Shown here: positions 2,691 to 64,000 of the stretch, in pieces
Numbering within the stretch: the first letter of the stretch is position 1
Layout of the letters: every line of letters begins with the position of its first letter
NCBI GenBank assembly: GCA_008638375.1
Contig: CM018032.1
Location: forward strand, 33,358,751 to 33,422,750
Direction: 5' to 3'
DNA: 64,000 nt
Source of the DNA: Nyssa sinensis
Taxonomy: Eukaryota; Streptophyta; Magnoliopsida; Cornales; Nyssaceae
Translations under genes and position numbers: made by a program
The notes under the pieces: generated by a model
Told to the model about the DNA's origin: nothing
Seen by the model: only the letters and a program-made list of their open reading frames with translations
Database searches by the model: none

Positions 2691-2767
2691 ACGCCGGATG
2701 GGCAATCTTCCACCTCGGGAGTGTGAGTGAAAACCGGATCTGCACAGTCCCGAGTGTACTGTAATTG

Positions 2768-5131
2768 CTATTTTGGAGCTGTCTCCTTGAGGGCAATAGC
2801 GTGACATTCTCGTGAGGTTGGCTGACATCCTCGGACCGAGTGCACGCTCTGATTGTGGACGTACTTCAGACACTGATGAAGGGTCGAAGTGACCGCCCCT
2901 ATCTGGTGTAACCAGGGTCTCCCGATGATGACGTTGTATGGAGACTTCATGTTCAACACCATGTATTCAGAGATGGTGGTCTTCTGCCCTTCACCTTCCC
3001 CAATAGTGGTAGGAAGGTCAACTCTCCCCAGGGGGGTGCTGAGGTTGCCATCAAAAGCTGCCATTACGGCAGTGGTGGGCTTGACGCTGTCCTGGTCTAT
3101 GCCCATCCGCTTAAGCGGTTCATAGAATAGAATGTTGACTGAGCTGCTAGTGTCGACTAGGACTCTTCTAGTTTCGAAGTTGGCGATTCTGAGGGTGATA
3201 ACAAGGGCATCACTGTGAGGGCAGTGTACCCCTGCTAGATCTTGCTCGGTGAACTGGATCTCTGGCCCTGGCTTGAGCCTCTTTTCGACGTTGGAGACCT
3301 GCAAGATGTTTGGGGCGGTTCTGGCCTCCCGAGCATATCTTTTTCTTGCCCTGTTAGACATTCCTGTAACAGGGGAGTCAGCATGGAGGACGTAGATAAC
3401 ATGGTTGTTCTGCCTCTGAGGCTCGTTTCGTCCTTCCCGCTGCTCTTGCCTCTGTTCGGGCCTCTGATCTGGCCGCTGCTGAGGCTTGTCTTCTTGGGGG
3501 TTCTGCCTTCCGTCTTGTTTGACAAACTCCCGAAGACGTCTCTTCTTTATGAGCTGTTCTATCTCATATCGGAGGGTCCTGCAAGTGTTAGTAGTATGCC
3601 CATGATCTTTATGGAAATTGCAATACTTACTTTGGTCCCGCAGGCTGGGATCTCCTTTGATCGGCTCTGGCCACCTCAGGTTCTCCCGATCTCGGATCTG
3701 CCGGAGTACCTGGTTCGGAGTGGTGTTCAAAGGCGTGAAGTTGGTGAACTCCCTTGGTGCGGAGTTGTACACAGCTCTGGGAGCTGTTTTCTTCTCTGGG
3801 CTTCTGACCCTCTTTTTGTTGGAGTCTTTTCTGTGATCCTCCTTCTTATGGTCCTCTCGCTTCGGATTATCCCTCTGCGTCTGATCCTTGCCCTTCTGGG
3901 CTGAGCGGTTGGCTTCTTCCAGGTTGATGTATTTTTTGGCCCGATCCATCAATGCTGCCATATCGGCCGGGGGGCTCTTTGTCAAGGAATCTCTGAAGCC
4001 ACCTTGGGCAAGCCCGGCAGTAAGGGCCGCAACAAGGAATTTCGGGCTGCAATCCGTGATCTCAGTGAGCTCGGTGTTGAAGCGGGCAATGTAGGCCCGG
4101 AGGGATTCCTCCCTGGTCTGCTTAACATTCAGCAGGAATTCTGGCCCCCTTCTGAGCCTCCTGCTGGTCATAAATCTATCCAAGAACTGTCTACCGAGCT
4201 CGTAAAAGCTGGCAACGGAGTTCGGAGGGAGGTTGTGGAACTACTTCAGAGTTGTTCCCTTCAAGCTGGTGATGAACGTTCGGCACATGAAAGCATCTGA
4301 GGCTCCGTGAAGGGCCATCGTATGCTGATAATGAGATAGGTGATCCCCTGGATCTCCAAATCCGTCGTAGAGAGTGAATTTGGGCACCACGAACTTTCTA
4401 GGCCTCTCTTCGGACATGATGGCGTGGGTGAACGGAGTGGCTAGTCTTCCGAGCAGCCTGGCCAGTTCGTCTTGCTCTGGAGGGTTCTGAGGTCCTCTCA
4501 AGCCGATTGTCCGGTCCATAGACTCGGCAATCTCCTCTACCCTTCGCGGGTCTCTGAGTCTGACATCTTGTGAACCCTGCCTGACAGCCTCGGCTTCAGG
4601 GTAGTAGGGTGGAGTGCGCCCTTCGGATGGAGGAGGAATCCGAACCGGTGGGACTGGCGCTGCATGGTAAGGTTCCTGTGGTGCCGGGGGTGCTCCCGAA
4701 ACCCTAGGAGTTGGGGCTCGAGTAGTGCTCCGGTAATGCACGTCGGGGATAAAAGCGGATGTTCCCCAGCCAGGGACTGTTGATGGCTGTGGATCTCGGC
4801 CAGCGTGAGCAACGCCTGAGGGGTGCCCAGGCTGGTTAGTGGGGGCCTGCCCACGAAGTTCTTCATTCCCCGTGGCAACCGGGGGTTGCGTTCCTGCAAC
4901 GAAGTTGACTGGTGGGCTAGGAGAAGCCGCCGCTTGGTTCTGCGTGAGCGTTGCCAGCGTTCTAGTAATGGCTAGCAACTGCTCCTGCACCAGTTCATTG
5001 TGTCGTTTTATTGCTTCGATCTCTTGTCGCATAGGGTTGTCCACCGGTCCCCTTGTGCGTGGAGCAGGCGGCTGACGCTGAGCGTTTTGCGAACTCTGAG
5101 TATTCTGTCGGGGTCGGAGATTTGGTGCCAT
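2768..5131 (-). pseudogene. gypsy gag-protease (one in-frame stop)
   Basis: Gag begins at ATG 5131 (MAPNLRPRQN...) and is open to a TAG at 4241-4243. The same frame resumes at once and runs to 2768. The related plus-strand gag at 46150-46746 has Trp at this position, so the break is a single Trp-to-stop change, not a frameshift. Visible parts are a proline-rich N-terminus, the retrotransposon capsid region (about 4450-3950), a highly charged Lys/Arg/Glu/Gln region, and a zinc-knuckle-like C-x2-H-x4-H-x4-C near 3570-3625. An aspartic protease follows with D-T-S-S-S-V-N-I near 3125-3165, where D-T/S-G is usual, so the active-site Gly is replaced by Ser. The C-terminal part of the protease (IIGRPWLH) is intact. 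In a working copy the product would form the virus-like particle and mature it. Confidence 0.9.
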
Positions 5132-5189
5132 GGTTTTCCGGTGGGGAAAAAGATGAGTTTACGAATAAAGCACGTAGAGATTAGTCATT

Positions 5190-5208
5190 CCCACAGACGG
5201 CGCCAAAC
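5190..5208 (-). promoter_or_regulatory. primer-binding site of the minus-strand gypsy element
   Basis: Directly inside the LTR end, the minus strand reads TGGCGCCGTCTGTGGG after a three-base gap. This is a usual position and form for a tRNA 3'-end complement in plant gypsy elements. The related plus-strand copy has a close variant just after its LTR (45416 onward). The tRNA species was not determined. Confidence 0.75.
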
Positions 5209-5882
5209 TGATGCTGCACTTTTTGACTCGCAACACGTGAGGGCTCCGTGACCTGTAGAACACTCAGAAAGATGATCAGAGGACCACCGGATTGGCTCCG
5301 GCGGTAGCCGCTCCGATGCTTAAGTAAGTAAGGGAATTGAAAGACTGTATTGAAAGTCAAAGAATGAGCATAAGAATCCAAAGCGTACGTCTAGGGTTTA
5401 ATATATAAGCCGTGGTTCTCCTAATTTTGATTAGGTTTTGCCGCCACGAATATCGGGATTTGATCATCAGAGATTTGCAGTTACCTTGTGGAGCATTGAA
5501 TCGTAGATGGAGATAACCATAGATAGTAGTTTCCGTGTTGAAGGCTGTTTCCTTATTCCCCGCTTAACGGCTGTTAAGGAAACCATATATGCAGTGTCGA
5601 ATAAATACTGTCCAGAACAGGAGGTCTGGACGATGTACATGAGAATATCCTGAATGTTTCATCTGTACTGTATGACCGAGTTCATCGGTTCTGAATGATA
5701 TATAAATAAGAATGCCCCGAAGGCTTATGGCTGCTCTGTATGATAAACATATATGAGAATACCCCGAAGGCTTGTAGCTGTTCTGTATGACCGAAATATA
5801 TGAGCTCTGTAGGATCGAGATTTGTTAATCTGATAGGCACACGTGTCTCAAACTGATTGGTGTGTCTGTTTATGGTATATCA
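5209..5882 (-). repeat. 5' LTR of minus-strand gypsy element
   Basis: The 674-bp LTR on the minus strand begins TGATATACCAT and ends GTGCAGCATCA. Its limits are fixed by comparison with the two other copies. A TATA-like TATATATTAAACC (minus strand) lies near 5397-5410. Compared with the other copies it has an extra internal duplication: the unit around ATGCCCCGAAGGCTT at about 5710-5748 recurs at about 5754-5792. The flank after the LTR is TAACC (5883-5887). The matching target duplication would be outside the window. Confidence 0.88.
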
Positions 5883-16143: not shown

Positions 16144-16934
16144 GGTCACATCTCGAAACCCACCCTATGCGGATTAGGGGATGCCAGTATACTTAACCAA
16201 AATTCATACAATTACATATCAAATCAAGCTTAAATATGGCAGCAGAAGCAATCACACATGTTACATTCATCAATCAAGTATCTAGATAGGCTAAAATTAT
16301 TATTTTTGAAACATTACATAACTTACATCAAGTTTGATTACTTCACAACATTGATCTTTACTAATTCCTGATCACATCTATTATGGGTCCCATACCCCAA
16401 GTTCACATCTGATCTCCATACTTACCCTAATTGTGAGTCTCATACCTCACGTTCACATTTGATATTTGACTTTACTATAGTTGTGCGTCCCATACCCCAC
16501 TTCTTATCAGAACTTCATACTTTCACTTCTTTACCTAAAATATCATGGGTAATATCCATGTGAGCTTTAGGAAAAGCTTGTGAGTAATTCTACCACCTCG
16601 TCATGGGTTCTTCAACTGATACCGTTTTGAGGCAGAAAGCATTTCATAATATAAATATGCTATCGACTGATTTCATTTTGATACAGAACATGAATACTTG
16701 AATCCTAAAGCATTTAAGCACATAACTTGAAATAGTAACTTAAAATAGAAGTATTTCAAGGTAATTCAAGTAAGACACTTTGTTTCTTAAACACATAGCA
16801 GAATTTTCCTTTGTGACACAAAACATGGACTTTTAGTTTTTCACATAAAACAAAATGAATAAATATTTTATTGGATGAAGAGTGTATCACACTTTACTTA
16901 TAATGCACGAGGATCATAAATTCTTTTCATTAAA

Positions 16935-18450
16935 CAAGAGGGTAAAACCCATTATCATATATCAAGAATGTAAAATTTTTTACTTATATAACATGAGAAT
17001 TGGAAATCCTTTTCATTAAACAGTAGGGCAAAACTCTTTATCATAAATCAAGAGTGTAAAACACTTTACCTATAAATCACAGGGATTGGAAATCATTTTT
17101 ATTAAACATGAGGGTAAAACTCTTTATCATAAATCAAGAATGCAAAACACTTTACTTATAAAACATGAGGATTAAAAATCATTTTCATTAAAACAGGAGG
17201 GTAAAACTCTTTATCATAAATCCGGAGTGTAAAACACTTTACTTTAAAGCATGAGAATTATAAATCTTTTTCATTAAACATGAGAGTAAAAACCTTCATC
17301 ATAAATCAGGAATGTAAGAAACTTTACTTATAAAGCATGAGGATTAGAAATCTTTTTCATTAAACATGAGAGTAAAACTCTTTTATCATAAATCAAGAAT
17401 GTAAAATACTTTACTTATAAAGCATGAGGAATAGAAATCATTCTCATTAAACAAAAAGGTAAATATCCCTTTATCATAAATCAGGAGTTTAAAAAACTTT
17501 ACTTTAAAGCTTGAGGATTAGAAATCATTTTCATTAAACACAAGAGTAAAGCCCTTTATTATAAATTAGGAATGTAAAAAATTTTACTTATAAATCATGA
17601 TAATTAGAAATCATTTTCATTAAACAGGAGGGTAAAACTCTTTATCATAAATCAAGAGTGTAAAACACTTTACCTATAAATCACGAGGATTGGAAATCAT
17701 TTTTATTAGACATGAGGGTAAAACTCTTTATCATAAATCAGGAGTGCAAAACACTTTACTTATAAAACATGAGGATTAAAAATCATTTTCATTAAAACAA
17801 GAGGGTAAAACTCTTTATCATAAATCAGGAGTGTAAAACACTTTATTTTAAAGCATGAGGATTATAAATCTTTTTCATTAAAAATGAGAGTAAAAACCTT
17901 TATCATAAATCAGGAATGTAAAAAACTTTACTTACGAAGCATGAGAATTAGAAATCTTTTTCATTAAACATGAGAGTAAAACCCTTTGATCATAAATCAG
18001 GAATGTAAAATACTTTACTTATAAAGCATGAGGAATAGAAATCATTCTCATTAAACAAGAAGGTAAATCCCTTTATCATAAATCAAGAGTTAAAAAACTT
18101 TACTTTAAAGCATGAGGATTAGAAATCATTTTCATTAAACACGAGAGTAAAGCCCTTTATCATAAATCAGAAATGTAAAAAATTTTACTTATAAATCATG
18201 AGGATTAAAAATCATTTTCATTAAACTAGAGGGTAAAACCCTTTTATCATAAATCAAGAGTGTAAAACACTTTGCTTAAAAATCACGAGGAGTGAAAATA
18301 TTTTTGATTAAACACGAGGGTAAAACTCTTTATCATAAATCAAGAGTGTAAAATATTTTACTTATAAAGCACGAGGATTAAAATTCCTTTTTTATTAAAC
18401 ACGAGGGTTAAACCCTTTATTATAAATCAGGAGGATAAAATTATCATTTT
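16935..18450. repeat. 86-bp tandem repeat with a 604-bp higher-order duplication
   Basis: About 17 imperfect copies of an 85-90-bp unit built on 'gagggtaaaactctttatc' and 'attttcattaaaca'. Diagnostic variants recur at exactly 604 bp: 'tttacctataaatcac' near 17065 and 17669, and 'agcatgaggaatagaaatc' at 17421 and 18025. A block of seven units has therefore been duplicated. AT-rich with no coding frame. Confidence 0.9.
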
Positions 18451-25984: not shown

Positions 25985-26930
25985 AACGGGACAAAACAGA
26001 GCAATACATCAATCAGAACAAGACATATCGGAACTGAACATGACGGAACGAGACGAAACAATATCAATCAGGACAAGTCATATCGGAACTGAACATGACG
26101 GAAACAAACGAAACAATATCAATCAGGACAAGTCATATCGGAACTGAACATGACGGAACAAAATGAAACAATATCAATCAGGACAAGTCATATCGGAATT
26201 GAACATGACGGAAACAAACGAAACAATATCAATCAGGACAAGTCATATCGGAACTGAATATGACGGAAACAAACGAAACAATATCAATCAGGACAAGTCA
26301 TATCGGAACTGAACATGACGGAACAAAACGAAACAATATCAATCAGGACAAGTCATATCGGAACTGAATATGACGGAACAAAATGAAACGATATCAATCA
26401 GGACAAGTCATATCGGAGCTGAATATGTCGGAACAAAACGGAACAATACATCTATCAGAACAAGACATATCGGAATTGAACAGGACGGAACAAAACGAAA
26501 CAATATCAATCAGGACAAGTTATATCGGAACTGAATATGACGGAACAAAATGAAACAATATCAATCAGGACAAGTCATATCGGAACTGAACATGACGGAA
26601 CAAAATGAAACGATATCAATCAGGACAAGTCATATCGGAACTGAACATGACGGAACAAAACGAAACAATATCAATCAGAACAAGACATATCGGAATTGAA
26701 CAGGACGGAACAAAACGAAACAATATCAATCAGAACAAGACATATCGGAATTGAACAGGACGGAACAAAACGAAACAATATCAATCAGAACAAGACATAT
26801 CGGAACTGAACATGTCGGAACAAAACGGAACAATACATCTATCAGAACAAGACATATCGGAATTGAACAGGACGGAACAAACTGGTACAATATCAATCAG
26901 GACAAGGCATATGCTACTTTAAATATATGC
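25985..26930. repeat. 55-bp minisatellite in element C
   Basis: About 16-17 copies of a 55-bp unit containing 'gacggaacaaaacgaaac' and 'caggacaagtcatatcgg'. A variant unit (atgtcggaacaaaacggaac, then catctatcagaacaagac) appears near 26425 and again near 26812, 387 bp or about seven units apart, suggesting a multi-unit duplication. The unit is not a multiple of three and has no conserved frame. Confidence 0.9.
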
Positions 26931-41578: not shown

Positions 41579-42224
41579 TGATGCTGCACTTTTTGATTTG
41601 CAATAAGTATGGGTTCCGTGACCTGTAGAACACTCAGGAAGATGATCAGAGGACCACCGAATTGGCTCCGGTAGTAGCCGCTCCGATGCTTAAGTAAGTA
41701 AAAGGAATTGAAAGACTGTATTGAAAGCCAAAGAATGAGCATGAAAATAAAGCGTACCTTTAGGGTTTAATTTATAAACCATGGCCTTCCTAAGTTGATT
41801 AGGATTCGGAGCCATGAATGTAGGGATTTGATCATCGGAGATTGCAGTTACCTTGTGGAGTATTGCATAGAGATAACCATAGATGGTAGTTTCCTTGTTG
41901 AAGACTGTTTTCTTGTTGAAGATTGTTTCCTTGTTGAAGACTGTCTCCGTGTTGAGGATTGCTTCCTTATTCCCTGCTCGGCATCCGCCAAGGCGGTGAC
42001 GAGGTCTGGAGTGTTGGTCTGGATCCTGTAATTAACTCTGAGATCTTTATCCGAATATATGTGTTCTGGAGGCATATGCTTGGCCACTTCCGACCTTTTG
42101 TGCTGATCTGGATGCTCGAGCGCTTAGCCATTAGCTGAGCGAGAGCTAAGTTAGCCGAGCATGAGTTGGATTCATAATCATACAGTGTCAAGTGCTGATT
42201 GACCTGCTCTTTTATGATATATCA
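41579..42224 (-). mobile_element. solo gypsy LTR, TSD ATAAA
   Basis: A 646-bp copy of the LTR at 5209-5882 and 60071-60705, complete with TG/CA ends (minus strand start TGATATATCAT). It is flanked by perfect 5-bp repeats ATAAA (41574-41578 and 42225-42229) and no internal element sequence. This is the product of LTR-LTR recombination after insertion. It has a TATA-like TTTATAAAT on the minus strand near 41771. A roughly 16-bp unit based on CTTGTTGAAGACTG is repeated four times near 41890-41965. Confidence 0.93.
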
Positions 42225-42229
42225 ATAAA

Positions 42230-44745
42230 TTAATTATTTTTTGAGTAATAATAAGTACATCAAATTAGTTTAGACATCATTTATCATTAACTTTTTTTAA
42301 AATTTTAAATAAAAAAAATCAAAGACATTTATTAATTACAAAAAAATTAATAACACATTATCCGGCAAACCAAATCAATATCATTTAAAATATAGATGTT
42401 TAAAACCATGCATGCACCTATATTACTCCCTTGTATTTGATTCCCACCACATCACATGTAATCTTTAAGATTTCATCAAAAAAGTAGATCGAGTAGCCCG
42501 GCCTACTTTAATTTATGAATAATGGTGATTATGTTCAACAAACTATCTATACTTTATGACCATTCCAGCACTCAAACACATGGGACGCCAGTGGTTTGTC
42601 GTCGAAATATGATATATATTTGTTTCATCAGCACCACCAAAAGTGCTTCTTTCCCATCCCCACTTAAAGAAATAAATAAAAAAAATTGAATAGAATATGA
42701 AAGTCCGAACATTTGATTCAAACAACAAATTATTAACAGTATGGATGGTGTAGAAAGAAGGAAATATAGTACTAACTTCATTAGCACCACCAAAAATGCC
42801 TTTTTTTTTCTTCTTTCAATCACTCAAAAGAAAATATCAAATCCAACGTGGGAGTGACTCAAACCATCCGATGGACTGACAAGAACCATCAATGTGTTTT
42901 GATGGAAGGAATATATGGAAGAAAGCGATTGATCGATGAAGGGGCAGAATTATTGGAGTGTATAGAAGCCGGCCAGTTCATTGATGGGCTAACTCAAGCC
43001 ATACGTACAAAAATGATGAGTTGACAAGTATGAAGTTTGAGAATCTTTCTTTTTTCTCCTTTTTTGAGTGAAGGCTACAGAATGCTACTGTTTAGAGCCA
43101 CATCAAAAGCTTACTTTGGCATCTTATGACCCAACTAGTAATTGAACAGTTAAAAGTACGACGAAATCTGGATTCTCAATCCCATTTTCCTGTCTCTCAC
43201 TTTATTCTTCAAGAACTGTTCCTAAAGATACTTGTAGATGACCGTCACTTCCTCGCGGACGCAGTCATAAGGAAGACAGCTACGCCGCCAAGTCGGTAAA
43301 CATTAATAACACGTGGTCCATCCAGGATGACAGGTGTCTCGTTCCAGAAAAAAAATTCAGTGAAAAAGAGCATAGTGTAACTCACGTTATTTTTAATTTT
43401 TTTGTTTCCGAGTATCACAATAGATTTTACATTCATCGTGCAAAAAAAACTCAAATTCCTTCTTCTGTTATATTTTAAAAGTCTTTTATTTTGTTTTAGA
43501 ATGTCTTAATTTAAGAGTAGTTAATATATTTTAACATATAAATTTTTAAAGTTAACTATTATTATAATATAAAAAATAATCTATAAAAAAGTAAATGAGA
43601 ATATTATTAAAAATTTAAACAATTTCTAAACAATAAAATAATCTCTTTTAAAAAATTAAAATTCCAAAAAATGTTTCTTAATTTGGAAAAGAGGGAGTAC
43701 TACCGAAGTAATACTATGATACCATTTCATTGAACTATTTTCTCCCATCCCGTGGCTAAATCAAGACCCATGATCAAGATGCATCAACTCACTTTTTTAT
43801 GCTGACCTTGGTGAAGCTATTTTTCTGCTCTATACTATTTTCGCTCATGAGTAGAAATGGCAACAGGAGCATGTTTGGAAAGGAATGATCATTTCCTAAC
43901 TTCGATTTCGTTAAATTTCTCACCTCATATCCCGTCTCATCCTGTTTAGAAGCTTACCACGATCTCAATCCTAACTCTATTTTTTAGCAACTAAACGGAG
44001 TCGGAACAGGATGACTAACCCTTAAACCCGTTCTAAATCTGACAGAATTTTAAAAGTCACACTCCGATTTTAACAACTCATAACAAATTCAAAAATATTT
44101 TAAAAATCACACCCCGACCTAATTTTTAAACACCCCATATTCATCTTATTAAAAAGACAAAACACCACAAATTACCTTTCCCACTCATGAGTGTCACAAA
44201 TATTACATGATGGAAATTTCCCCCTAAAATTACACATTCCTTTCCATCTCACAGATGTCCAAAGCTTAGGGACGGGTCTTGGGATACTCTTACACTCTTG
44301 GCGCGTGGTACAATTATTCTTACAATATAATTGACGAAAGTTTGGATATGACCGGAGACGCCTTAAAATAATATGTACTTAAGTGTATATATATCATGAT
44401 TACAATGAATAAGAACATTCAACACAATTTATAGAGCATTTACTAATTTGTATATAAAATATTTACATTAATACCTAAAGATGATCTTCAAATATTGTTT
44501 GATGTCTTACTAATGGTCATACATATTACAAAGTATTGAATTCAGGAGGTAAATCTTTATCTTGACTTGGCATGCAATACACAAATGATAATCATGTGAT
44601 CACTATCTCATTATTAATTACAAAAGAGACACGTCAATTAATATTTACATAAATTAACAAAAGAATCTTCCACCTCCTCACTCCCCCATCACTAGCTTCA
44701 TCACCTTAAAGAGGGTAGAAAAATGGTGTGAGTTTGACAAGCTCG
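42230..44745. other. spacer with a possible MITE
   Basis: No gene recognised. A short direct similarity (AGCACCACCAAAAGTGC near 42630 and AGCACCACCAAAAATGC near 42784) and the MITE-like segment at 43456-43698 are the only structures seen. From about 44690 the sequence resembles the early part of the giant LTR-like elements ('gtgtgagtttgacaagctcg'). Confidence 0.4.
43456..43698. mobile_element. degenerate Stowaway-like MITE
   Basis: About 240 bp, very AT-rich. The right end AAAAGAGGGAGTA is the complement of the Stowaway-type TACTCCCTC terminus. The left end (TTCCTTCTTCTGTT) is a decayed inverted match. TA flanks are only partly preserved. Confidence 0.4.
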
Positions 44746-44956
44746 GTGAGTAAATGTTAAATCTCAAAAAATTTATAAATGATATTTTAGTCATTTTTTA
44801 GTTTTAATTGTAATTAAGATCACCGATTAAATTAAAATATTTCTATCAAAAATTAAAGTTTACGTGAATTAATTTCATAATTGTGATTAATTGTGAAATT
44901 AATCATACAATAATGCGATATTGTATAATTAAAATGTGAATTAACATATTACCTAC
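44746..44956. repeat. about 210-bp AT-rich direct repeat, copy 1
   Basis: It runs from about 'gtgagtaaatgttaaatctc' to 'ttaacatattacctac' and is nearly identical to 47372-47587. The gypsy LTR starts immediately after it at 44957. Copy 2 continues past the same point into different sequence (CATTGTG). Confidence 0.88.
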
Positions 44957-45415
44957 TGATATACTATGATTTGACCGCATCGCTGAGGATATGACTCGCA
45001 TTTTCAAAGAGGGATCTTCATTATACAGATCATAAGAATAAATTTCATCAGACCAATTGGCATACAGATCACAGAGATGAGACATACCGAGCTGGTCACC
45101 GCCTTCCATAGACTATCAACTTCAGAATAAAGAAACAAAGTTCAATATGGTAACTACTATCTATGAATATCTTCATATCCCTACTTTCATGACTCATAAT
45201 CCTACTCAACTTGGGAGATCTACAACCTATAAATAAGGTCATAAGGTACACATTTGAGTCACGTTCAATTCTTCTTTTGAATTATTGTCTTCATTTCTTT
45301 ACTAACTTTATCACTGGAGTGACTACCTCCGGAGCCTTCTCGATGACCTTCTAACCTCAAGTTCTTGACAAATAGTTCGAGAGAAGAAGGATTCAAACCA
45401 TAAAAGTGCAACATC
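44957..45415 (+). repeat. 5' LTR of plus-strand gypsy fragment (short, diverged variant)
   Basis: It starts TGATATACTATG and ends AAAAGTGCAACATCA, matching the two ends of the larger LTR family here, but it is only 459 bp and has diverged in between. A TATA-like CCTATAAATAAGG is near 45228. It is followed by a PBS-like GACGTCGTCTGTGGGAA (45420-45436). Confidence 0.75.
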
Positions 45416-45494
45416 AGTTTGACGTCGTCTGTGGGAACGACGGTCGTTTTCATTATTTTACATCAGAAACTAAGCTTTTTTTCTTAAACAAACA

Positions 45495-47362
45495 ATGGCT
45501 CCAAACCTTTGTCCTAAAAAGAATCCTCAAAACCCTCAAAATCAGCCTTCTATTGGAAGATGAAGGGGACAAACACTCGTTCGTCTATAATAGCAGCTTG
45601 ATCGAATTCAGTGGCAGTATGATCATATATAGGAACAACTTACAGCCATGTCACAGGCTCTGGCTTCACTGGCTTAAAACCAGCGAAATATCCTCCTCAT
45701 CCAACCATGCTGTTCATGATGGATCTCAACCTTCCCGTCACCACCACGGGCGAAGGATCCCACAATGAGGAGTTGCCCAATGCGCAGCCGATGCACCCCT
45801 ATGGTGCTGTCCACATGGGGACTGATCCACAATCGTCAACAACTATTGGAAGAGAAACACCATCGTTTCATCCATTATTAGAGCAGGACGAGAATACCAA
45901 TTCCACTAACCTCTAAAGCCAATCCAGCACACTAAGGACTTTAGCCTCTCGAAATCCCACGTCCACTAGTCTTGGGAGAGCAACATCCTTCTACTTCTAC
46001 AAGACCGAATCCCTCCATGAATTCAGGACTCGGAGACATGAGACACGACCAACAACAGGCACCAATAGCACAACAGAACATACAACTAGGCCCCTCAGAA
46101 GGTAGAAAAGATAACAAATTCTCAAAATAAGAGGATCTTTACCAAGGGATTGCACGTTCCCCCAGAACAAGAAGAGTTAAGCAAATTACTCGGTATGTTC
46201 TCCATGTTTTTCACTCTTGCCATAATGATAGAGGAACGATCCAAGAAGTTTATTGTCCCGAAACTTACTCCCTATGACGGGTCTAAAAATCTTGGAGACC
46301 ACTTATCTCATTATCAGCATACGATGGCTCTACACGGGGCTACCGACACTTTTATGTGCCAAACCTTTATAACTAGTCTGAAGAGTACCGTCTTTAAATG
46401 GTTTCATAACCTTCCTCAAAACTCGATCAACAATTTTTATGAACTCAATATTCTGTTTCTTGACCACTTTTTGACAAGCAAGAAGTTAAGAAAGGGGCCA
46501 GAGTTCTTGCTGACTATTAAGCAAGCAAAAGGAGAGTTGCTACGAGAGTACATAACTCGTTTTAATACCAAGCTCATAAAGATGAACGACTGTAGTTCAG
46601 GTTTCTTTGTGGCTGCTCTTACTTTAGGATTAGGACCTGAACGCTTTCAGGACTCTTTAACTAAGAACCCCTTGGCCGATATGGTTGTGCTCATGGACAA
46701 AGCACGAAAATATATTAATCTAAAAGACACCAAAGCCTTCTTCTGAAAATTCAAAGAACAAGCTTAGAAGGATGAGCAAGTCTGAAAGAGAGATAGTAGG
46801 GACAATAAGAAGAGAACTAGGAGTCCCAATAAAATAACAACATCAAGAGCATAGAACAACTCTGGCTCTAGAAGGTATGGAACTTACACCCCGTTGAATG
46901 CTTCCTTTACTCACATACTCCAACAAGTCTAGACTCGTGAAAACCTGAAGTGGCCAGAACTATTAAAAAACAACTCAAACTCTAGAAACAAAAAAAAAAA
47001 AAAAAAGTATTGTGATTTCTACAAAGAACAAGGACACACCACTGAGGAGTGCAGGACTTGAAGTAGGAGATAGAGTACCTCATCAGGAGAGGACGATTAA
47101 GAGAGTTTGTCTGTTTGGATGGGAGACAGAACCCTAGAGATGAGAGACCCCCTCAAAGGAGGCCGGAATAGAGGCCTGAACAGAGGGAAGTTTGGAATGA
47201 TCAGCAGCAACCAAATAATCAATAAGTCATTTTTGTACTTCATGCTGACAATACAATGATTGGAATGTCTAATCGGGCTAGAAAAGGATATGCTCGGAAA
47301 GTAAGGGTAAAGCCCTCACATCATCCAGATCTTAACCATTGAGAAGAAAATGAAGATGGAAC
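45495..47362 (+). pseudogene. gypsy gag remnant, plus strand
   Basis: ATG at 45495 (MAPNLCPKKNPQ...) aligns with the gag start of the minus-strand element at 5131. An early stop and frame changes follow. The best part, 46150-46746, is a 198-residue capsid segment (KFIVPKLTPYDGS, HYQHTMALHGATDTFMCQTF, EYITRFNTKL) that retains the Trp lost in the other copy. Farther on, the zinc-knuckle-like motif (about 47008-47052) has Tyr in place of its first His, and an 18-A run precedes it. Homology stops near 47362, before the protease, at the junction with the second AT-rich direct repeat. Confidence 0.85.
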
Positions 47363-47371
47363 AAGCTTAAT

Positions 47372-47587
47372 GAGTAAATGTAAAATCTCAAAAAATTACA
47401 AATGATATTTTAGTCATTTTTCAGTCTTAACTGTAATTAAGATAATTGATTAAATTAAAATACACCTATCAAAAATTAAAGTATACATGAATTAATTTTA
47501 TAATTGTGATTAATTATGAAATTAATCATACAATAATGTATGTGATATTGTATAATTAAAATGTGAATTAACATATTACCTACCATT
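47372..47587. repeat. about 210-bp AT-rich direct repeat, copy 2
   Basis: Near-identical to 44746-44956. The gag remnant ends directly before it. The arrangement suggests that a gypsy element inserted into copy 1 of a pre-existing tandem pair and a deletion then joined gag to copy 2, or that the fragment was copied together with its flank. Confidence 0.85.
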
Positions 47588-53079: not shown

Positions 53080-53282
53080 TGTGGAAATTCCCAATTTGTG
53101 GCGTAATTGCAGGAAGATTTTATTTTTATTCTCTATAGAGAAATTGTAGGAAGATTTGTAGGAAGATTTTATTCTTTCCGTTTTTTCTCTTTCCTTTTCC
53201 TTCTTCCCAATTGTATTATAAATACCTAGAATGTGTATATGAAAAGATATAGAAAATACAGAAGAAATTCTTTCTGACTACA
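53080..53282 (+). repeat. copia 5' LTR
   Basis: TGTGGAAATTCCC...CTGACTACA, 203 bp, with a TATA-like TATTATAAATACC near 53213-53225. It differs from the 3' LTR by a few substitutions and an extra copy of 'gtaggaagattt', so the two have diverged since insertion. Confidence 0.93.
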
Positions 53283-53295
53283 TGGTATCAGAGCC
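53283..53295 (+). promoter_or_regulatory. copia primer-binding site (initiator Met tRNA)
   Basis: TGGTATCAGAGCC directly follows the LTR, the standard complement of the plant initiator methionine tRNA 3' end. Confidence 0.93.
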
Positions 53296-53986
53296 AGAGA
53301 AGCTCACTGTCTCTGAGGGGATCATTGTCCATCATTCCACATTTGATCGGCCATTCATCGTCGATCAGATACATGATAATTGTTGGGTTTAAACTCCCAT
53401 CGCTGATGAAGATTAGTGCTACTGTTGATCGTTTCCTCCCCTATAGATCAGTGGTAAACACCCCTCATCCTCTCGCTTCCGTTGCCTCTGAGCTCTTCCA
53501 TTGCCGACGACGATCTGTGCTACCATCGATCATTATTTCGTCTGCCAATCTGTGGCTTGGCCCTTTCATCGCGTTGGCACATCATCGGTTCAGTCATCTC
53601 CAGATCGAGCCTCTGTTCATCATTGTGTCTACTTCGAGTTGTTTCATCTCCAAATCGAGCCTCCATCCATCATCGTGTCTACTCGATCGTCACGTTCCCA
53701 AACCAAGCACGACCTATTGAAATCCTTCTGAAACTTTTTGCTTTCGGATACGGCAATCGACGGGTTCTACTTGGGTGGTCGACTCTCGGCCTGGATTTGG
53801 TTGGGTCGAAATCTAGGCTGCTTGGGGTTCTGTCTTTCCCCAGTAGGTCGTGGACCAGTAACCCAAGTTCATTTTAAACCCTATTCCCTTTAAAAAAAAT
53901 ATAAAAAATAAAAAAAAAAAAAAAGAAAAAAAAAAAAAACCCATCTGTCCAGCTCATATAATTTCCCAGAACCTTAGACCCAATTC

Positions 53987-54950
53987 ATGACCAAAGGTCC
54001 CAACAGCAAGGCCGACGTTCTCTCCACCATGGGTTCCAATGGCCTTTCTCTCTCGCCTCTTCAACTCACAGTGGAGAAGTTGAATGAAAAAAACTTTTGT
54101 GAATGGGCTCAGTCTATTCGACTCATTCTCGACGACGACGGCAAACTTGGCTACCTTACTGGCGCGACACCCAAGCCAGCCTCAACCGAACCAAGCGGCG
54201 TCGCTACAGAAATAGACGTCTAAGAACTCCATGGTGACTGCTTGGCTAGTGAATTCCATGCAACCTACCATCGGAAAGACCTACCTTTTCTTGCCGACGG
54301 CGAAAGACGTTTAGGATGCCGTTCGAGAGACATATTCTAATGTTGGCGATTCCTCTCAGATTTTTGACATCAAGACTCGACTATGGCAAATGAAGCAAGG
54401 AGAGAAGGACGTCACGATTATTTCATGGAGATGACGGCTCTCTGGCAGGAACTCGATCTCAGCTTTGATGATGAATGGGAGTGCTCTGGTGATAGTGTTC
54501 GCTACAAGAAGAAACTCGAAACTGAGAGAGTCTTCGAGCTTTTTGCTGGGCTCAACCGCGACTTGGATGATGTTCGTGGCCGTATTCTTGGTCGACGACC
54601 TCTGCCTTCCACACGTGAAGTCTTCTCGGAAGTCAGGCGTGAAGAGCAGCGGTGTCGAGTGATGCTGAAGGACTCTCTTCCCACTGGACTTGAAGTGTCT
54701 GCCTTGGTAACAAAAAGGCCCCTTGGCTGGGTCTAGGCCGAAACAAAACAGAGGCCGACCTTGGTGTGAACATTGCCATAAGCCTGGTCATACTAAGGCT
54801 ACTTGTTGGGAGCTCCATGGGAAGCCTGTTGACTGGAAAACATGGCAGAATCATCGCACTCGTGGCTATCACACTACTGCTGACCATCAGGCCGAACCCC
54901 CTCCCGAGGTCAACCACACTCCGAACGGTGCCTTTACCTTTGACTAGTTG
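53987..54950 (+). pseudogene. copia gag with zinc knuckle (broken)
   Basis: It starts MTKGPNSKAD at 53987 with the usual copia gag N-terminus (LTVEKLNEKNFCEWAQSIRL). It is broken by a stop at 54221-54223, another near 54313 and several frame changes. The UBN2-like middle survives in pieces (DIKTRLWQMKQGEKD, then the 54383-54736 frame). A zinc knuckle, CEHCHKPGHTKATC, lies at about 54766-54810. Gag would form the particle that packages the RNA. Confidence 0.85.
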
Positions 54951-55059
54951 GATCAGCTCTACAAACTTTTTTCTAGCCTACAACCCTCTGGTTAGTTTTC
55001 CACGCCGACTCCTTCTGGTTCATTAGCTCACCGAGGTAATTTTTTACACGCCCTCGTTA

Positions 55060-58000
55060 CTGCCTCTCACTCAAAAACTCCTTGGATTATTGACTCTGGT
55101 GCTTCTGATCACATGACTGGCTTTTACCACCTTTTTTCTTCATACTTACCTTGTGCTGATAATCTTAAGGTTAAAATTGTTGATGGTTCCCTCTCCTCTG
55201 TAGTTGGGAAAGGGAGTATTCGTCTCTCTGACTCTATTACACTTGAGTCTGTTCTTCATGTTCCAAAGTTATCATGCAATCTGTTATCCATTAGCCAATT
55301 GACAAAAAATTCTAATTGTTCTGCTAAGTTTCTTTCCTCTCATTGTCTGTTTTAGGACCTATCATCGGGGGCGACGATTGGCAGTGTTAAGGAGTGTGCT
55401 GGTCTCTTACTACTTTGAGGACGCTGATGTGAGAAAATAGGGTCCCATTTCCTTTTGTGATTTTGTATCTGTCTCCAAGGATAGTGAACTTTTGTTATGG
55501 CATTTTCGAATGGGTCATCCCAATTTTAACTATTTGCAACGTTTATTTCCGAATAAAGGATTCTCTAATTTTCAATGTGAACTAGCGAAACATCACCGTA
55601 CTTCTTTTCCGCCATCCACATATAAACCATCCAAGTCGTTCACTCTGATTCACAATGACTTGTAAGGTCCTTCTCGTATTATTAATCGTACTCATACCCA
55701 ATGGTTTGTTACCTTTATTGATGACACTCGCATTTGTTGGGTCTACCTATTAAAGGATAAAATAGATGTTCGTTCTATTTTTATCAATTTTCACTCCATG
55801 ATCCAAACACAATTCCAGGCACAACTTCAAATTCTGCGCACTGATAATGGCACCAAATATTTTAATACTACTTTGGGTGATTATTTTTAGAAACATGGGA
55901 TCATTCATCAAAGTTCTAGTGTTAACACTTCCCAACAAAATGGGGTTGTCGAAAGAAAAAATAGACACATTCTCGATGTTGCTCGTGCCTTGATGTTCAC
56001 TGTGCATATGCCCAAAATGTTTTGGGGTGATGCTGTTTTGACCTCTACCTACCTCATTAATAGAATGCCTAGCCGCGTTCTCTCTTTTGCTACACCCCTC
56101 CAAACATTTCAGCAATTCTTCCCTCACTCTCGCCTCTCCTCTAGTCTATCTCTTAGAGTATTTGGTTGTACCGCCTTTGTTCATGTCCATTCCCACCATC
56201 GGCATAAATTCGACCCTCGAGCTATTAAGTGTGTTTTCCTTGGGTATTCTCCTACTCAGAAAGGTTACAAGTGCTATGATCCATCCACCAAACGGGTTTT
56301 TATTAGCCTTGATGTTACTTTTTTTTAAAATACTTCTTACTTCCAAAAGCCCTCCCTTCAGGGGGAGCATTTGAGTGAAGGTCGGGTATTAGATTTTGAA
56401 CTCTCCTTTTCTGAACCTATCCCAAACACTGAACATGCCACACCATCCTGTTCTAATGTGCCATTTACAGAAGGACACTTGAACTCAAGAGGTGATGTAG
56501 GAAAACAACAGGACAAGGAGATACTTGTTTATTCACGAAGGCCACAATCAAGGTGCAAGGAACATCTCATACCTGAAGCACCAAAAGCGTTGGCCCCAGT
56601 GATAGCTCCAAGTAACCAAGAGTCTCCTTCCAAGTCTAAAACAGAGTCTCCTGATACTAATTTACCCATTGCTCTCAGAAAATCAACTCGGTCATGTACT
56701 CTCCACCCTATCTCGAAATTCATATCTTATAATGCTCTGTCTACAAACTTTCGTGCTTTTACCTCTAACCTTGATAGTACAGGAATTCCAAAAAATATTC
56801 AGGAGGCCTTGGAGGTCCCTAAATGGAGGGATGCCGTTCTAGAAGAAATGCGGGTGTTGGAGAAAAATGAGACTTGGGATGTGATGGATTTACCGAGAGG
56901 GAAGAAACCGGTAGGCTGCAAATGGGTTTTTACCTTGAAATACAAGGCTGATGGGACAATCGAGTGTTACAAAGCCCGCCTAGTTGCAAAAGGGTTTACA
57001 CAAACCTATGGTATTGACTACACAGAGACATTTGCACCTGTGGCAAAGTAGAATACAATTCGAGTCCTCTTGTCATTAGCACTCAACTTGGATTGGCCTC
57101 TTCAACAACTTGACATTAAGAATGCCTTTCTGAATGGTGAGTTAGAAGAAGAAGTCTTCATGACAATACCACCGGGATTTTGTAAGAAGGGAGAAGAAAA
57201 TCGGGTATGCAAACTTAAGAAGTCTCTGTACGGTCTCAAGCAATCACCTAGAGCATGGTTCGATAGGTTTGCAAAGGTGATAAAGGGTCAAGGATATCAG
57301 CAGGGGTAGTCAGATCACACTATGTTTTTCCAGCAATCTGAAGATGGAATGAGAACAATTCTAATTGTTTATGTTGATGATATAATCCTAACTGGGGATA
57401 ATTTAGTGGAGATGGAGAGACTGAAGAAAATCCTAGCCATTGAATTTGAAGTAAAAGACTTGGGATAAATGCGATACTTCTTGGGAATGGAAGTTGCCAG
57501 ATCAAAAAAGGGTATTAGTGTCTCTCAACGAAAGTATATTCTTGACCTTCTAACCGACACTAGCATGCTTGGATGTAAACCAAATGACACACCTAAAGGA
57601 ATTCAAAGGATGAGGGAAATCCAGCAGAAAAGGATAGATATCAGAGACTAGTTGGCAAGCTAATCTATCTATCGCACACTAGACCTGACATTGCATTTGC
57701 GGTTAGTGTGGTAAGCCAACACATGCATTCACCAAAAGAAACTCACCTAGAAGCTATGTACAAGATTCTCAGATATCTCAAAGGCTCCTCGGGTAAAGGA
57801 CTATTCTTCAAGAAATCAGAATGCAAAGAAGTCGAAGTTTTCACAGATGCTGACTAGGCAAGTTCAATAGAAGATAGAAAGTCCACTACCGGGTATTGTA
57901 CCTATGTATTGGGACACTTGGTTACGTGGAGAAGCAAGAAACAAAGTGTAGTGACCAGAAGCAATGCTGAAGCCAAATTTAGAGCTGCTGCACAAGGGAT

Positions 58001-58277
58001 ATGTTAAAGATTGTGGCTAAAGAAACTCTTGGAAGAACTACAGGTCACAGTAAAACTCCCAATCAAACTTTACTGTGACAGTAAAGCAGCCATCAACATT
58101 TCTCTCAACCCAGTTCAGCATGATCGAACCAAGCATGTAGAAGTGGAAAGACATTTTATCAAGGAAAAAATTGAGAACGGAATTATCTGCATGACCTATG
58201 TTTCTACAAAAGAACAAACTGCGTATATCTTCGTCATAGGACTATTTCGGCCCAGTTTTGACGAGATCATCTACTAG
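55060..58277 (+). pseudogene. copia pol: protease, integrase, RT, RNase H (many stops)
   Basis: Order: protease (WIIDSGASDHMTG, about 55082-55122), GAG-pre-integrase (LLWHFRMGHPNF, about 55495-55530), integrase core (RTDNGTKY and NGVVERKNRH, 55840-55975), RT ([12 protein letters not shown] from about 56922, KNAFLNGELEEEV, YVDDIIL at about 57369) and RNase H to about 58277 with motif KLYCDSKAA. Premature stops are seen after HNDL (TAA), in DYF*KHG, VAK*NT, QG*SDH, DLG*MR, DAD*AS and IC*RL. The RT catalytic box is intact. Several stops stand where Trp is usual. Confidence 0.9.
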
Positions 58278-58306
58278 TTGGATGTGATTAACATTTTTTA
58301 TCCAAC

Positions 58307-58319
58307 TTGAGGGGGAATG
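58307..58319 (+). promoter_or_regulatory. copia polypurine tract
   Basis: TTGAGGGGGAATG lies immediately before the 3' LTR, the usual primer for plus-strand DNA synthesis. Confidence 0.88.
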
Positions 58320-58509
58320 TGAAAATTCCCAATTTGTGGCGTAATTGCAGGAAGATTTTATTTTTATTCTCTATAGAGAAATTATAGGAAGATTTTTATT
58401 CTTTCTGTTTTTTCTCTTTCCTTTTCCTTCTTCCCAATTGTATTATAAATACCTAGAATGTGTATATGAAAAGATATAGAAAATACAGAAGAAATGCTTT
58501 CTGACTACA
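58320..58509 (+). repeat. copia 3' LTR
   Basis: TGAAAATTCCC...CTGACTACA, 190 bp, colinear with 53080-53282 except for the missing short duplication and a few substitutions. Confidence 0.93.
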
Positions 58510-60070: not shown

Positions 60071-60705
60071 TGATGCTGCACTTTTTGACTCGCAACACAT
60101 GTGGGCTCCGTGACCTGTAGAACACTCAGAGAGATGATCAGAGGACCACCGGATTGGCTCCGGCGGTAGCCGCTCCGATGCTTAAGTAAGAGAATTGAAA
60201 GACTGTATTGAAAGCCAAAGAATGAGCATAGCCAATAAGGCGTACCTTTAGGGTTTAATTTATAAGCCGTGGCTTTCCTAAGTTGATTAGGATTCGAAGC
60301 CATGAATATAGGGATTTGATCACCGGAGATTGCAGTTACCTTGCATAGAGATAACCATAGATGCCCTGCATATAGGGATTTGATTACTGGAGATTGCAGC
60401 TACCTTGCACAGAGATAACCATAGATGGTAGTTTCCTTGTTGAAGACTGCTTCCTTGTTGAAGACCGCTTCCTTATTCCCTGCTCGGCATCCGCTAAGGT
60501 GGTGACGAGTTCTGTAGTGTTGGTCTGAACTCTGTGACCTTGTTCTGGATATATATATATGTTCGGCCACTTCCGACCTTGTATGATGATCTGGATGCTT
60601 GAGTTTTTCCTTATTGGCTGAATGAGAATCATGTTGGCTGAGCATAGGTCGGATTGCGGTTACACGTGTCAAGTGTTGATTGGCCTGTTCTGTTATGGTA
60701 TATCA
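60071..60705 (-). repeat. 3' LTR of second gypsy element
   Basis: A 635-bp copy with the family ends (plus strand TGATGCTGCAC ... GGTATATCA). The flank on the left is TTTTG (60066-60070), which would be the target duplication. The other copy lies outside the window. Confidence 0.9.
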
Positions 60706-60724
60706 GTTACTCCCCCCCCAAGTC
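60706..60724 (-). promoter_or_regulatory. polypurine tract of second gypsy element
   Basis: The minus strand reads TTGGGGGGGGAGTAAC immediately before the LTR start TGATATACC. This is the plus-strand primer site and fixes the orientation of the element. Confidence 0.8.
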
Positions 60725-60937
60725 CTAGTTTGATGCTAGCAAGCAACTAAGGCTAAGCCTTTTTCGGAGAGTCATGTGTCTTGTCCGTTCGCCTTCCAAG
60801 GCTTTTATTGCGCAGCCGGAGATTAGGTCTTTTCAATGTCATCATTGTACTGGGCTGATAGTCGGGTTTCTCGAAATCATCATTGTTCCGAACCGTCATG
60901 GCGTTTGGGATTGGTGGGTCCCTTCTGATATTGCGCT

Positions 60938-60945
60938 TATAAATA
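60938..60945 (+). promoter_or_regulatory. TATA box of the antisense gene
   Basis: TATAAATA, 170 bp before the ATG at 61115 and about 230 bp inside the LTR boundary. It lies on the strand opposite to the element, so the antisense gene seems to have its own promoter. Confidence 0.6.
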
Positions 60946-61114
60946 CGGGATGAGATTTTGGACTGACCTTTCCCCCGTCATTTTCACTGTGCTAGGAGAT
61001 TTCGTTCGCCATTGTTGGTTCGTGTGACCTTGAAGAGTACTGGTTCCCTGAATTAGAACAGGTTCGACTGATTTTTCCTCTTCTCTTGCTTCTTTCTTCT
61101 TAAGTCTGGGAATA

Positions 61115-63033
61115 ATGTCTGCTCTTCCTGAATCCCCAACTGTGAATGAGGGAGTGGGAAATCCTCCTGAGATGGCTGTACCGTCTTCTGTAGAAGATGT
61201 GGGTAATCCTGCTCCCGAAGTTACTGGGGAGATGCCTGTTGATCCTCCCACTAGTCCTGGAGTTAGGATAGTTGATGCTTTTGAGGAGCCCCGAGACAGG
61301 GCTGGGGAGACCTCTGGTAGGTCTTCCCGTAGAGAAGAGGGTGAGAGTGCTGTCACTCGGAGCCTTCTGGATGAATGGAGGGTGAAATTTAAATTTCCCA
61401 CGAATGTGACCTGCAGAGCGCCAGGCCCCATGGATCGTTCCCATAATGTTGAAGCCGGGGAGATTTGTGTTTACCTTGCCTGGTTTGAAATGGGCTTGAG
61501 GCTCCCATTACTGGATTTAGTCAGGCAGTTCTTTTGTTGGTTCAAGCTCTGTCCTGCCGACCTGAATCTCAATAGCTGGCGGCAGCTTTTAGGGTTTGTG
61601 GTGTTGGGACACCTGAACAAGGTGGATGTGTCTCTGGACTTGATCCGTAGTAATATGGATCTGAAGTTCAAGCAGGCAGAGGGCCTTTTCTATATGTCCT
61701 TTGAGAAGGGGTTCCGACCCCTGACCTCTGTTCCTACTTCCAACAAGACGTGGAAGAAGTGGTACTTCTTTGTTGGAGGAGGATGGGAGTATGAAGGCTT
61801 TCAGGAAGGAGAGGCCTCGTCGTTCCCTCGTGTTACGGGTCATAGGGGTGAGGCTTATTCTTTTAGACTTTCTTTTAGCCTTGTTGTGCCTTCCGAACTG
61901 ATAAGCTGATATGTCTTTCCTTACTTGTGTGCAGATAAGAGTGTTTGGAAGAGGCCCGACTTTACTGAAGCACTGCGGGATCAGTACCGAGCACTGCTTT
62001 CGACTCCTGACCGGGCTCATTCTGTCATTATTACTCCAGCAAACTTGATGGCTGCCCGTAATGCAGAGCTTAAGAAGAGGTTGACGTCGAGATGGGCTGT
62101 GCCGGATGCCCCAGTGGCGGGGGAGTCTTCCTCCCGAGCTGAGCCTGATGCCCCCCTTGAAGTAAAGAGGAGGAGGTTGATTTCTGGCTCTCCTGAGCCG
62201 GCTCCTGCCGAGGCTGAAAAGGAGGCTGAACCTACCGTCCCTGTTTCGGCTGCTCCTCCTGTTTCTTCTGGTCCGAGCAGGAGGGCTAGGAAGGGGAAGG
62301 CACCTGCTGCATCGTCCGAGCCGTTTAATGAGCCGGACTATCAGATCGCCAAGAGGGCGTTTGATCAAATATGGGCTTATGGCCCGCACCGGTACAGAGG
62401 GGATGACCCCTCCAAGCTGATGACTGAGATGATGAATCTCCAGATGAAGGTAGCTTCTGAAGCTTTTTCTTGACTTTTCTGCCTGTATGTTCGTTCAATC
62501 TAACCCGTCTGTCTTGCTTTACGCAGAGTATGCATAGCTTGGTTGCTCTGATGGTGACCCCCATGGGCCTTGAGGAGGCCGAGAAGCTGCGGGCTGAAGT
62601 GGAACAGATGAGGGTGGAGCTTGGGACAGCCCGATCCAAAATTCAGAGCATTGAGGAGGATCTGAAGGAAGCTACCACCAACCTTACCGTGGCAGAGTCT
62701 GAGAGGGACATAAATGCTCAGAAGGTTACGGGGCTTGAGGCGGAGTTGGTTAATCTCCGGAGTTCCTTCGATCAGAAGGTTCAGGAGGCGATTGATCATG
62801 CCCGGGCTGAGACTGAGATGATATTAAAAGATGAAGTTGACCAGATGGGTGATGAGCTGATCCTGTTTGGTTTTGAAAGCTTCCGAACTAGATTCCAGAT
62901 TCAGTTCCCGGGCTTTGACGTTTCATCAATTGTTCCCCCTGAACCTGCCTCATCTCGTCCTGATCCGGATAAGACGGCTGGGGCCCGTGCCCTTAACTTA
63001 GATGAGGACGCAGGCCCTTCTGGGAAGTCTTGA
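61115..63033 (+). CDS. antisense gene of the gypsy element: PF04195-like protein, three exons
   Basis: Exons 61115-61847, 61935-62449 and 62527-63033 are separated by introns of 87 bp (GTGAGG...TGCAG) and 77 bp (GTAGCT...ACGCAG). Phases fit exactly (1 then 0), giving 584 residues. Residues 1-90 are Pro/Ser/Glu-rich. About 110-240 match the plant 'putative gypsy-type transposon' domain (VEAGEICVY, GLRLPL, NSWRQLLGF, TWKKWYFFV). About 310-375 is an Ala/Glu/Pro linker with basic clusters (KRRR, RRARKGK) that could act in nuclear import. About 430-515 is a long coiled coil (EEAEKLRAEVEQMRVELG). The tail is acidic. Antisense ORFs of this kind are known from Tat elements and their role is not settled. 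No lesion is visible, in contrast to gag-pol of the sister copy. Splicing is inferred. Confidence 0.85.
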
Positions 63034-63099
63034 GGCTCTATGGGTTTTTATCCCCTTTTTGTTTTTGCTATTTGATGTAATGGGCGTATACTTCCGATC

Positions 63100-63105
63100 A
63101 ATAAA
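63100..63105 (+). terminator. polyadenylation signal of the antisense gene
   Basis: AATAAA about 67 bp after the stop codon, followed by a T-rich stretch, as expected for a plant gene on the plus strand. Confidence 0.6.
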
Positions 63106-64000
63106 ATTATTTTTCCTTCAAATTCTTCTTGTGTTCTTCCCTTCTGTGTAAGTATGGCTGCTCTAGGTCTTTTGCATGCTAGATCAACTGTTCAGTAGTC
63201 AATAGTTGCTTTTGCGAGCTTCGATACTGGTTACTGAATGAGGGATGTAGATTAATTTCACCTGCCTCATTATAATAAGACAAGAAAGTAAATATAATCG
63301 GATAGATAGAGCCTGATAGAGTGGGAGTAAACTCCTGTAGATCTCTTAGGGTAGGCTGCTCTAAATCAAGAGCTTGTGAAGACAACTAGGCAGCTCTGTA
63401 CTTGTTGTTATGATGCTTGGTATGCTGAGTACTTAGGATCGGGATATATCCGAGCTGTTTGAGCTTTGAGATATGACCTGGCTTGTCATAAAAATAGTCA
63501 AGACTGAAAGATCTGAATTTTGAATAGGGGGTCTATATAATTTAGACTTTGTTCCCCTTTCTGTTAATTCGGGCGCTTCAGTGCCGGACTGCGGTCTCTG
63601 TTTAGAGGGTTCCGTACCCTGTCCCTTGGTATATCGAAGCAGCTCATTTAATGCGCCATTTATTTATTCGACTGTCATTTAGGATTTCGAGGCCACTCTC
63701 TTTTTCACCGTTGTAAAGGTTCAGTTGGGCGTCTTTTGGACTTCAAGGGTCCATATAAATGGAGATGAGGGCATATGGTTGCGTTCATCTTTTTGATTTC
63801 AAATTGTCCCCTTGTGAGAAAGGCCTCATATGCTACCGGAGTTTTGCCATTTGCCCGGAAATGATGGGTGATTCCTTGCCTGAGTTAGGAGCGATTAAAC
63901 TATGGCCGAGAGTTAACCTTCCCCTTTTTTCAGTCTCCAAGGAAGGATTGAAGGAAATACAAGTCTTCTTGTCTCCTCTGGCATCCGGTCGAGATTCCTC
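63106..64000. other. internal spacer of second gypsy element
   Basis: No integrase or other pol sequence is visible on the minus strand. The region is mixed in composition with only short ORFs. It presumably separates pol from the antisense gene, and pol would lie beyond the right edge. Confidence 0.45.

Follow-up and report, generated by a model that had tools for sequence, protein, structure and literature searches.

Near the end of the 64,000-nucleotide window (the whole stretch of Nyssa sinensis DNA analyzed here), a Ty3/gypsy element carries a gene between its 3′ LTR (60071-60705) and its pol, which is encoded on the opposite strand. The spliced frame comprises 584 codons plus a stop codon on the (+) strand (61115-63033) and consists of three exons separated by two GT-AG introns, all on that strand. 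Exon 1 (61115-61847) begins with the ATG at 61115 and encodes residues 1-244 plus one base, and intron 1 (61848-61934, 87 bp) splits a codon after its first base. Exon 2 (61935-62449) encodes a proline-rich linker with basic clusters and is followed by intron 2 (62450-62526, 77 bp), which falls between codons. Exon 3 (62527-63033) encodes a coiled-coil-like tail, then the stop codon. A TATA box (TATAAATA, 60938-60945, (+) strand) lies 177 bp upstream of the ATG, and an AATAAA signal (63100-63105, (+) strand) is located downstream of the stop codon. One ATG occurs 12 bp downstream of the TATA box, and the next ATG is the gene's own start. Without splicing, the frame ends after 264 codons, within intron 1. 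An earlier model-made reading of the DNA letters (the sequence-only reading) had proposed this gene, and on recomputation the ATG, exon borders, 87 and 77 bp GT-AG introns, 584 codons, TATA box and AATAAA all proved exactly as described.

When two GT-AG introns of 60-150 bp were allowed, the best (+) model in 60900-63110 had 593 codons. Across 200 dinucleotide shuffles under the same rule, the median was 155 codons and the longest model had 276, short of 584 in every case. The (-) strand of the real sequence reached 502 codons under this loose rule, so the strand is not fixed by length alone. In a crude consensus count, the sites of intron 2 were the best listed and those of intron 1 were joint best (the donor at 61839 ties with that at 61848). 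The T content is 44 and 43% in the introns and 22-28% in the exons. Base preferences trained on exon 1 choose the expected (+) frames in exons 2 and 3; those trained on pol are ambiguous in exon 1, with the (-) strand scoring slightly better. In base-shuffled sequence, TATA boxes arise at a rate of 0.065 per 300 bp and AATAAA at 0.017 per 200 bp, and the two sites, taken alone, are weak evidence for a gene.

The 3′ LTR is 635 bp in length and reads TGATAT...GCATCA on the (-) strand. It is adjoined by a polypurine tract (60706-60730, limits approximate), which appears as a run of C on the (+) strand. Beyond the gene, the rest of the (-) element's interior between pol and the 3′ LTR continues to the window end (63034-64000), with a tandem array and the (-) pol further on, at positions equivalent to 64812-65367 and 66163-68657, respectively. 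In L009, a stretch that extends past the window, the (-) strand of this element carries RT, integrase and two RNase H-type matches. LTRs of the same orientation occur in the window at 41579-42224 and 5209-5882, the latter in a second element with (-) gag-pol. This shared orientation and the polypurine tract assign the LTR at 60071-60705 to a (-) element, and the pol of the same element, just past the window end, is also on (-). All three lines of evidence agree, and the antisense position proposed earlier is upheld. Pol was looked for in 20 fetched copies: it lies on (-) in 18, and the stretches of the other two gave no pol match.

In the Tat clade, a second RNase H domain follows the RT-RNase H. 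Both RT_RNaseH and RVT_3 score above cut-off in one ORF in the gene-carrying element, which thus has this second domain, and the same was found in the window's other element. The region between pol and the 3′ LTR spans ~4.7-5.2 kb in L009, depending on the pol end chosen, and includes arrays of 93- and 60-bp units between the antisense gene and pol (L009 4913-5468). The long region with tandem repeats and the antisense PF04195 ORF between pol and the 3′ LTR are features of the Retand type. By structure, the element is Tat-type and Retand-like.

The sequence-only reading had expected PF04195 in the protein. We detected this domain (TRP28) in exon 1, at residues 118-176, where it barely passes (26.4 bits against a cut-off of 26.2). 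Conserved positions in the published TRP28 alignment, as given in the accessible portions of the report, are G21, P25, L34, P46, N47 and F55 (PMC11963269). By eye, four of the six (G, P, N and F) match by spacing and two do not. Three basic clusters are found in the linker, and residues 429 to 543 are proline-free. Exon 3 alone gave coiled-coil-type Pfam matches, every one of them below cut-off. Neither the spliced protein (7,997 scored candidates, E <= 0.001) nor exon 1 (506 candidates, E <= 0.01) found a relative in a 5.8-billion protein set. For the pol at 186-2687, 7,450 of the 7,942 scored candidates were found in the same set. The success of the pol search indicates that the set contains plant proteins, and the absence of relatives of the gene product thus probably reflects the word-based search. 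Searches of viral and prokaryote contigs confirmed no relative for exon 1 or pol, and a plasmid search none for exon 1. A single-sequence structure model of exon 1 had a mean pLDDT of 36, and the sole match in a search of solved structures (E = 0.21) is regarded as chance.

Copies of the gene were searched for in the 1.0-Gb assembly containing the window. The DNA search gave 4,740 first-look candidates, and the best 40 (window included) were scored. Each matches 2,206 or more of the 2,211 bases at 96-100%, over genomic spans equal in length. All 40 have thus kept both introns, which bears out the expectation that the introns are retained. The exon 1 protein search gave 11,042 candidates, and a stop lies inside the match in 46 of the 150 listed (hand count). 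The PF04195 search gave 6,369 candidates, with all 150 that were scored passing the cut-off; the same search found no match in any of 14 control genomes. With a query across the exon 1-exon 2 junction, none of the 80 matches in the best 40 of 1,259 candidates spans the junction. Save for a few bases the matches are confined to one exon, and the one that runs furthest past the border extends to position 85 of the 160-position query. There is no sign here of processed copies, and splicing is neither proved nor disproved by this search.

In a set of 20 close copies, that of the window among them, both introns have GT-AG borders in 19; the other copy has GC at donor 1. The TATA box is present in all 20, the ATG in 18 and an intact AATAAA in 17. 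Ten copies are stop-free, and seven are stop-free and gap-free and have the ATG. When compared with a neutral expectation matched for context, the non-silent/silent ratio was 0.83 among private changes, 0.93 among those shared by at least two copies and 0.73 among those shared by at least three. None of these values is significant (162, 693 and 285 of 2,000 simulations, respectively, were at or below the observed ratio). Changes found in at least five copies comprise 8 non-silent versus 11 silent (post hoc binomial 0.02). Mean pairwise differences are about equal in introns (0.027 and 0.043) and exons (0.030-0.039). Such a pattern is expected if insertions decay neutrally, and by the sequence-only reading's own criterion it argues against individual copies being under selection. 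The LTRs diverge more than the gene among the copies (mean pairwise difference 0.077), a comparison that we left unused because the copies were ranked by gene similarity.

To this we added 10 diverged places with PF04195, chosen from the 150 listed for long open frames and variety, a choice that biases the set toward conserved proteins. Several of these copies are themselves decayed. Similarity to exon 2 was found in seven, and the remaining three are unreadable for intron 1. In all seven readable copies, the position and phase of intron 1 (one base before, two after) are identical to those of the window gene. The intron ends in CAG in all seven, and its donor is GTGAG or GTGAT in six and ATGAG in one; the intron 1 donor of L032 is broken. 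Its lengths are 109, 86, 97, 86, 84, 91 and 86 bp, in copies whose exon 1 protein identity to the window gene is, in the same order, 54, 81, 56, 81, 52, 62 and 85%. As these lengths are unequal modulo 3, the exons join in frame only after intron removal. Intron 2 is present at the homologous place, with GT-AG ends, in all 4 of the 10 copies in which it is readable (lengths 78, 78, 76 and 51 bp). Relative to the exon 2 start its phase is 0 in two of the four. In the other two the exon 2 frame is closed before the intron 2 donor, and one of these has phase 0 in the local frame. Introns at the same place in diverged copies support the proposed two-intron structure as real. Three of the 10 copies (L030, L031 and L033) share the position of the TATA box, and AATAAA is absent from the fetched stretch of L030 and L033.

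For exon 1, dN/dS between the window gene and L030, L033, L037 and L031 was 0.243, 0.167, 0.236 and 0.253, respectively; dS against the window is saturated for the more distant diverged copies. Outside the Pfam domain, the values for the same four pairs were 0.289, 0.232, 0.346 and 0.353 (bootstrap upper limits 0.46, 0.39, 0.61 and 0.73). Exon 2 gave 0.251 (0.16-0.41) between the window and L033. Exon 3 gave 0.279 for the window versus L030, 0.351 for the window versus L033 and 0.243 for L030 versus L033. Judged by these ratios (0.17-0.35), the protein is under purifying selection between subfamilies. The earlier claim of selection therefore holds at this deeper level, but not among the 20 closest copies, which are near neutral with 7 of the 20 intact; their non-significant ratios come close to the dN/dS near 1 that the sequence-only reading had itself named as evidence against it. 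It had also argued for selection from an intact frame beside decayed gag-pol. The gag-pol at 186-5158 belongs to another insertion, so that argument compares different insertions and is dropped.

We considered whether the exons could instead be two or three separate unspliced antisense ORFs, the introns being an artefact of the gene model. Published surveys, in the portions accessible, count antisense ORFs of at least 600 bp individually (PMC11963269), the frame is left open by many splice-pair combinations (187 of them leave at least 540 codons), and no intronless copy was found among the best 40 of the 1,259 junction-query candidates. However, the same codon, phase and GT-AG borders recur down to 52% exon 1 protein identity, and the unequal intron lengths modulo 3 allow the frames to join only after removal. 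Moreover, exon 3 is conserved (dN/dS 0.24-0.35) even though no ATG opens its frame at the intron border. We regard separate ORFs as unlikely. It is clearly less probable again that a host gene was captured by one element (transduction) and travels as a passenger. The first-look candidates number 4,740 (DNA), 11,042 (exon 1) and 6,369 (PF04195), with 40, 150 and 150 scored, the genome has several diverged families, and such ORFs are published, in the accessible text, for most Retand clusters of eudicots and monocots (PMC11963269). These observations outweigh the host-like exons, introns, TATA box and poly(A) signal that would suit a captured gene. The earlier proposal that the element transports a eukaryotic gene hints at a captured host gene; an old part of the element lineage fits these observations better. 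An ancient capture that predates the spread through Retand is possible.

The least probable explanation, to which we give very little weight, is that the selected product lies on the element's sense strand, where there are (-) ORFs of 301 and 177 residues, or that the antisense transcript acts only as RNA. In its favour, when the codons of the (+) gene were shuffled, only 61 of 2,000 shuffles gave a (-) ORF as long as the 301-residue one, and LTR elements can have antisense transcripts that function as RNA, as the accessible part of one source states (PMC7264820). Against a sense-strand product, exon 1 read on (-) has dN/dS of 0.9-2.0 in two frames, one of them that of the 301-residue ORF, and the (-) ORFs have no Pfam match above cut-off. 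The third (-) frame, which shares third positions with the (+) frame, gave 0.23-0.41, never below the (+) value. The low (+) dN/dS compared with the (-) frames indicates that the (+) protein is what was kept; the choice of copies via the protein domain qualifies this conclusion.

In combination, the results very probably reflect a twice-spliced TRP28 accessory gene that lies antisense in a Ty3/gypsy retrotransposon of Tat type and Retand-like structure; its 584-residue product is probably nuclear and would serve in regulation of the element. A promoter just inside the 3′ LTR, facing into the element, would drive the (+) transcript, which would be spliced twice in the plant and polyadenylated, ending before the tandem array. 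Translation would yield a 584-residue protein with an N-terminal TRP28 domain, a basic proline-rich linker and a coiled-coil-like tail. This protein probably acts in the nucleus, where it may regulate the element's own life cycle, most likely through the element's chromatin, transcription or silencing. The element would move via the opposite-strand RNA and carry the introns there as plain sequence. It follows from the strand geometry that splice signals are reversed in this genomic RNA, and the introns would thus be passed on.

The window gene is of the same kind as the TRP28 ORFs of Retand and gene23 of maize Grande. According to the accessible portions of the Retand report, 97% of clusters have antisense TRP28 ORFs in the region from pol to the 3′ LTR; these ORFs are present in nearly all recently active elements and are proposed to have a DNA-binding, regulatory role (Vicient, 2025; PMC11963269). 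As described there, the gene-carrying element has an antisense PF04195 ORF between pol and the 3′ LTR, tandem repeats in this region, a long pol-3′ LTR region (published 2,933-6,566 bp) and LTRs of several hundred bp (published mean 635). In contrast to the single ORFs of that report, the window gene joins TRP28 and the coiled-coil part as exons, and its introns recur in diverged families; the word "intron" is absent from the accessible text of PMC11963269. Gene23 is likewise an antisense accessory gene in the 3′ internal region (Gomez-Orte et al., 2013, via the accessible part of PMC7264820), with its own promoter and a nuclear product. Its transcription and location were tested experimentally, whereas the window gene is known from sequence. 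HTLV-1 HBZ, as described in the part of the source available (PMC1459196), is also an antisense, spliced and polyadenylated retroelement gene with a start on the 3′ LTR side and a regulatory product, but it starts inside the LTR, unlike the window gene, and the analogy is one of layout only. Ogre is another plant LTR element with functional introns (PMC6317226 and PMC12786077, accessible portions). The Ogre introns belong to the sense RNA and control how gag-pol is expressed, whereas the introns of the window gene are on the opposite strand.

We found no description of introns in antisense TRP28 genes in the open papers and passages covered. The shared intron structure, the joining of TRP28 and the coiled-coil part in one spliced frame, and the between-subfamily dN/dS go beyond that literature. 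The chances seem about equal for and against the antisense ORFs of Retand (TRP28 and the separate Smc-, TolA- and polIII-like ORFs) each being an exon of a single ancient gene in which two or more introns are conserved. On that reading, with introns lying opposite to the genomic RNA, packaged RNA could not yield the protein, whose sole source would be nuclear transcripts of integrated DNA that have been spliced. Introns can reduce a transcript's risk of RNA silencing, and if the ORFs do derive from one ancient gene, they may help the antisense mRNA escape it. The shared intron structure tells which frames go together, supplies exact junctions to be sought in RNA data and makes a full-length protein available for study. 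Placement antisense to the genomic RNA may be a way for an LTR element to keep introns over long times.

When examining the surroundings of the gene we noted further features. A 193-codon (+) frame is open through the arrays at L009 4913-5468, and the longest (+) frame there varies widely among the 20 copies. Another (+) frame, of 140 codons (L009 3860-4282, mostly past the window), occurs at the same place in 11 of the 20 close copies and is longer (203 codons) in two further ones (hand counts). The second (-) element (186-5882) has a related LTR type and runs off the window start. Its gag-pol (5158-186) encodes gag, RT, two RNase H domains and an integrase zinc finger over three frames. Its LTR (5209-5882) is followed on the (-) strand by TGGCGCCGTCTGTGGGAA, which resembles a primer-binding site and which we take to be of the type typical of such elements. 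A solo LTR of the same type (41579-42224, 646 bp) has a 5-bp target duplication, ATAAA, on both sides. A copia-type element occupies 53080-58509, with direct repeats of ~200 bp that are 93% alike and an RVT_2 fragment at 56329-57051. Direct repeats of ~220 bp (89%) at 44737-44956 and 47361-47583 flank a (+) gag fragment (46090-46746), and no pol appears in the ORF list of this element (44737-47583), which is perhaps non-autonomous or deleted. The window also includes tandem arrays at 16880-18440 (86-bp unit, 18 copies) and 26008-26912 (55-bp unit, 16 copies), and the end of an amino acid transporter gene (PF01490, 8338-9024), apparently a host gene.
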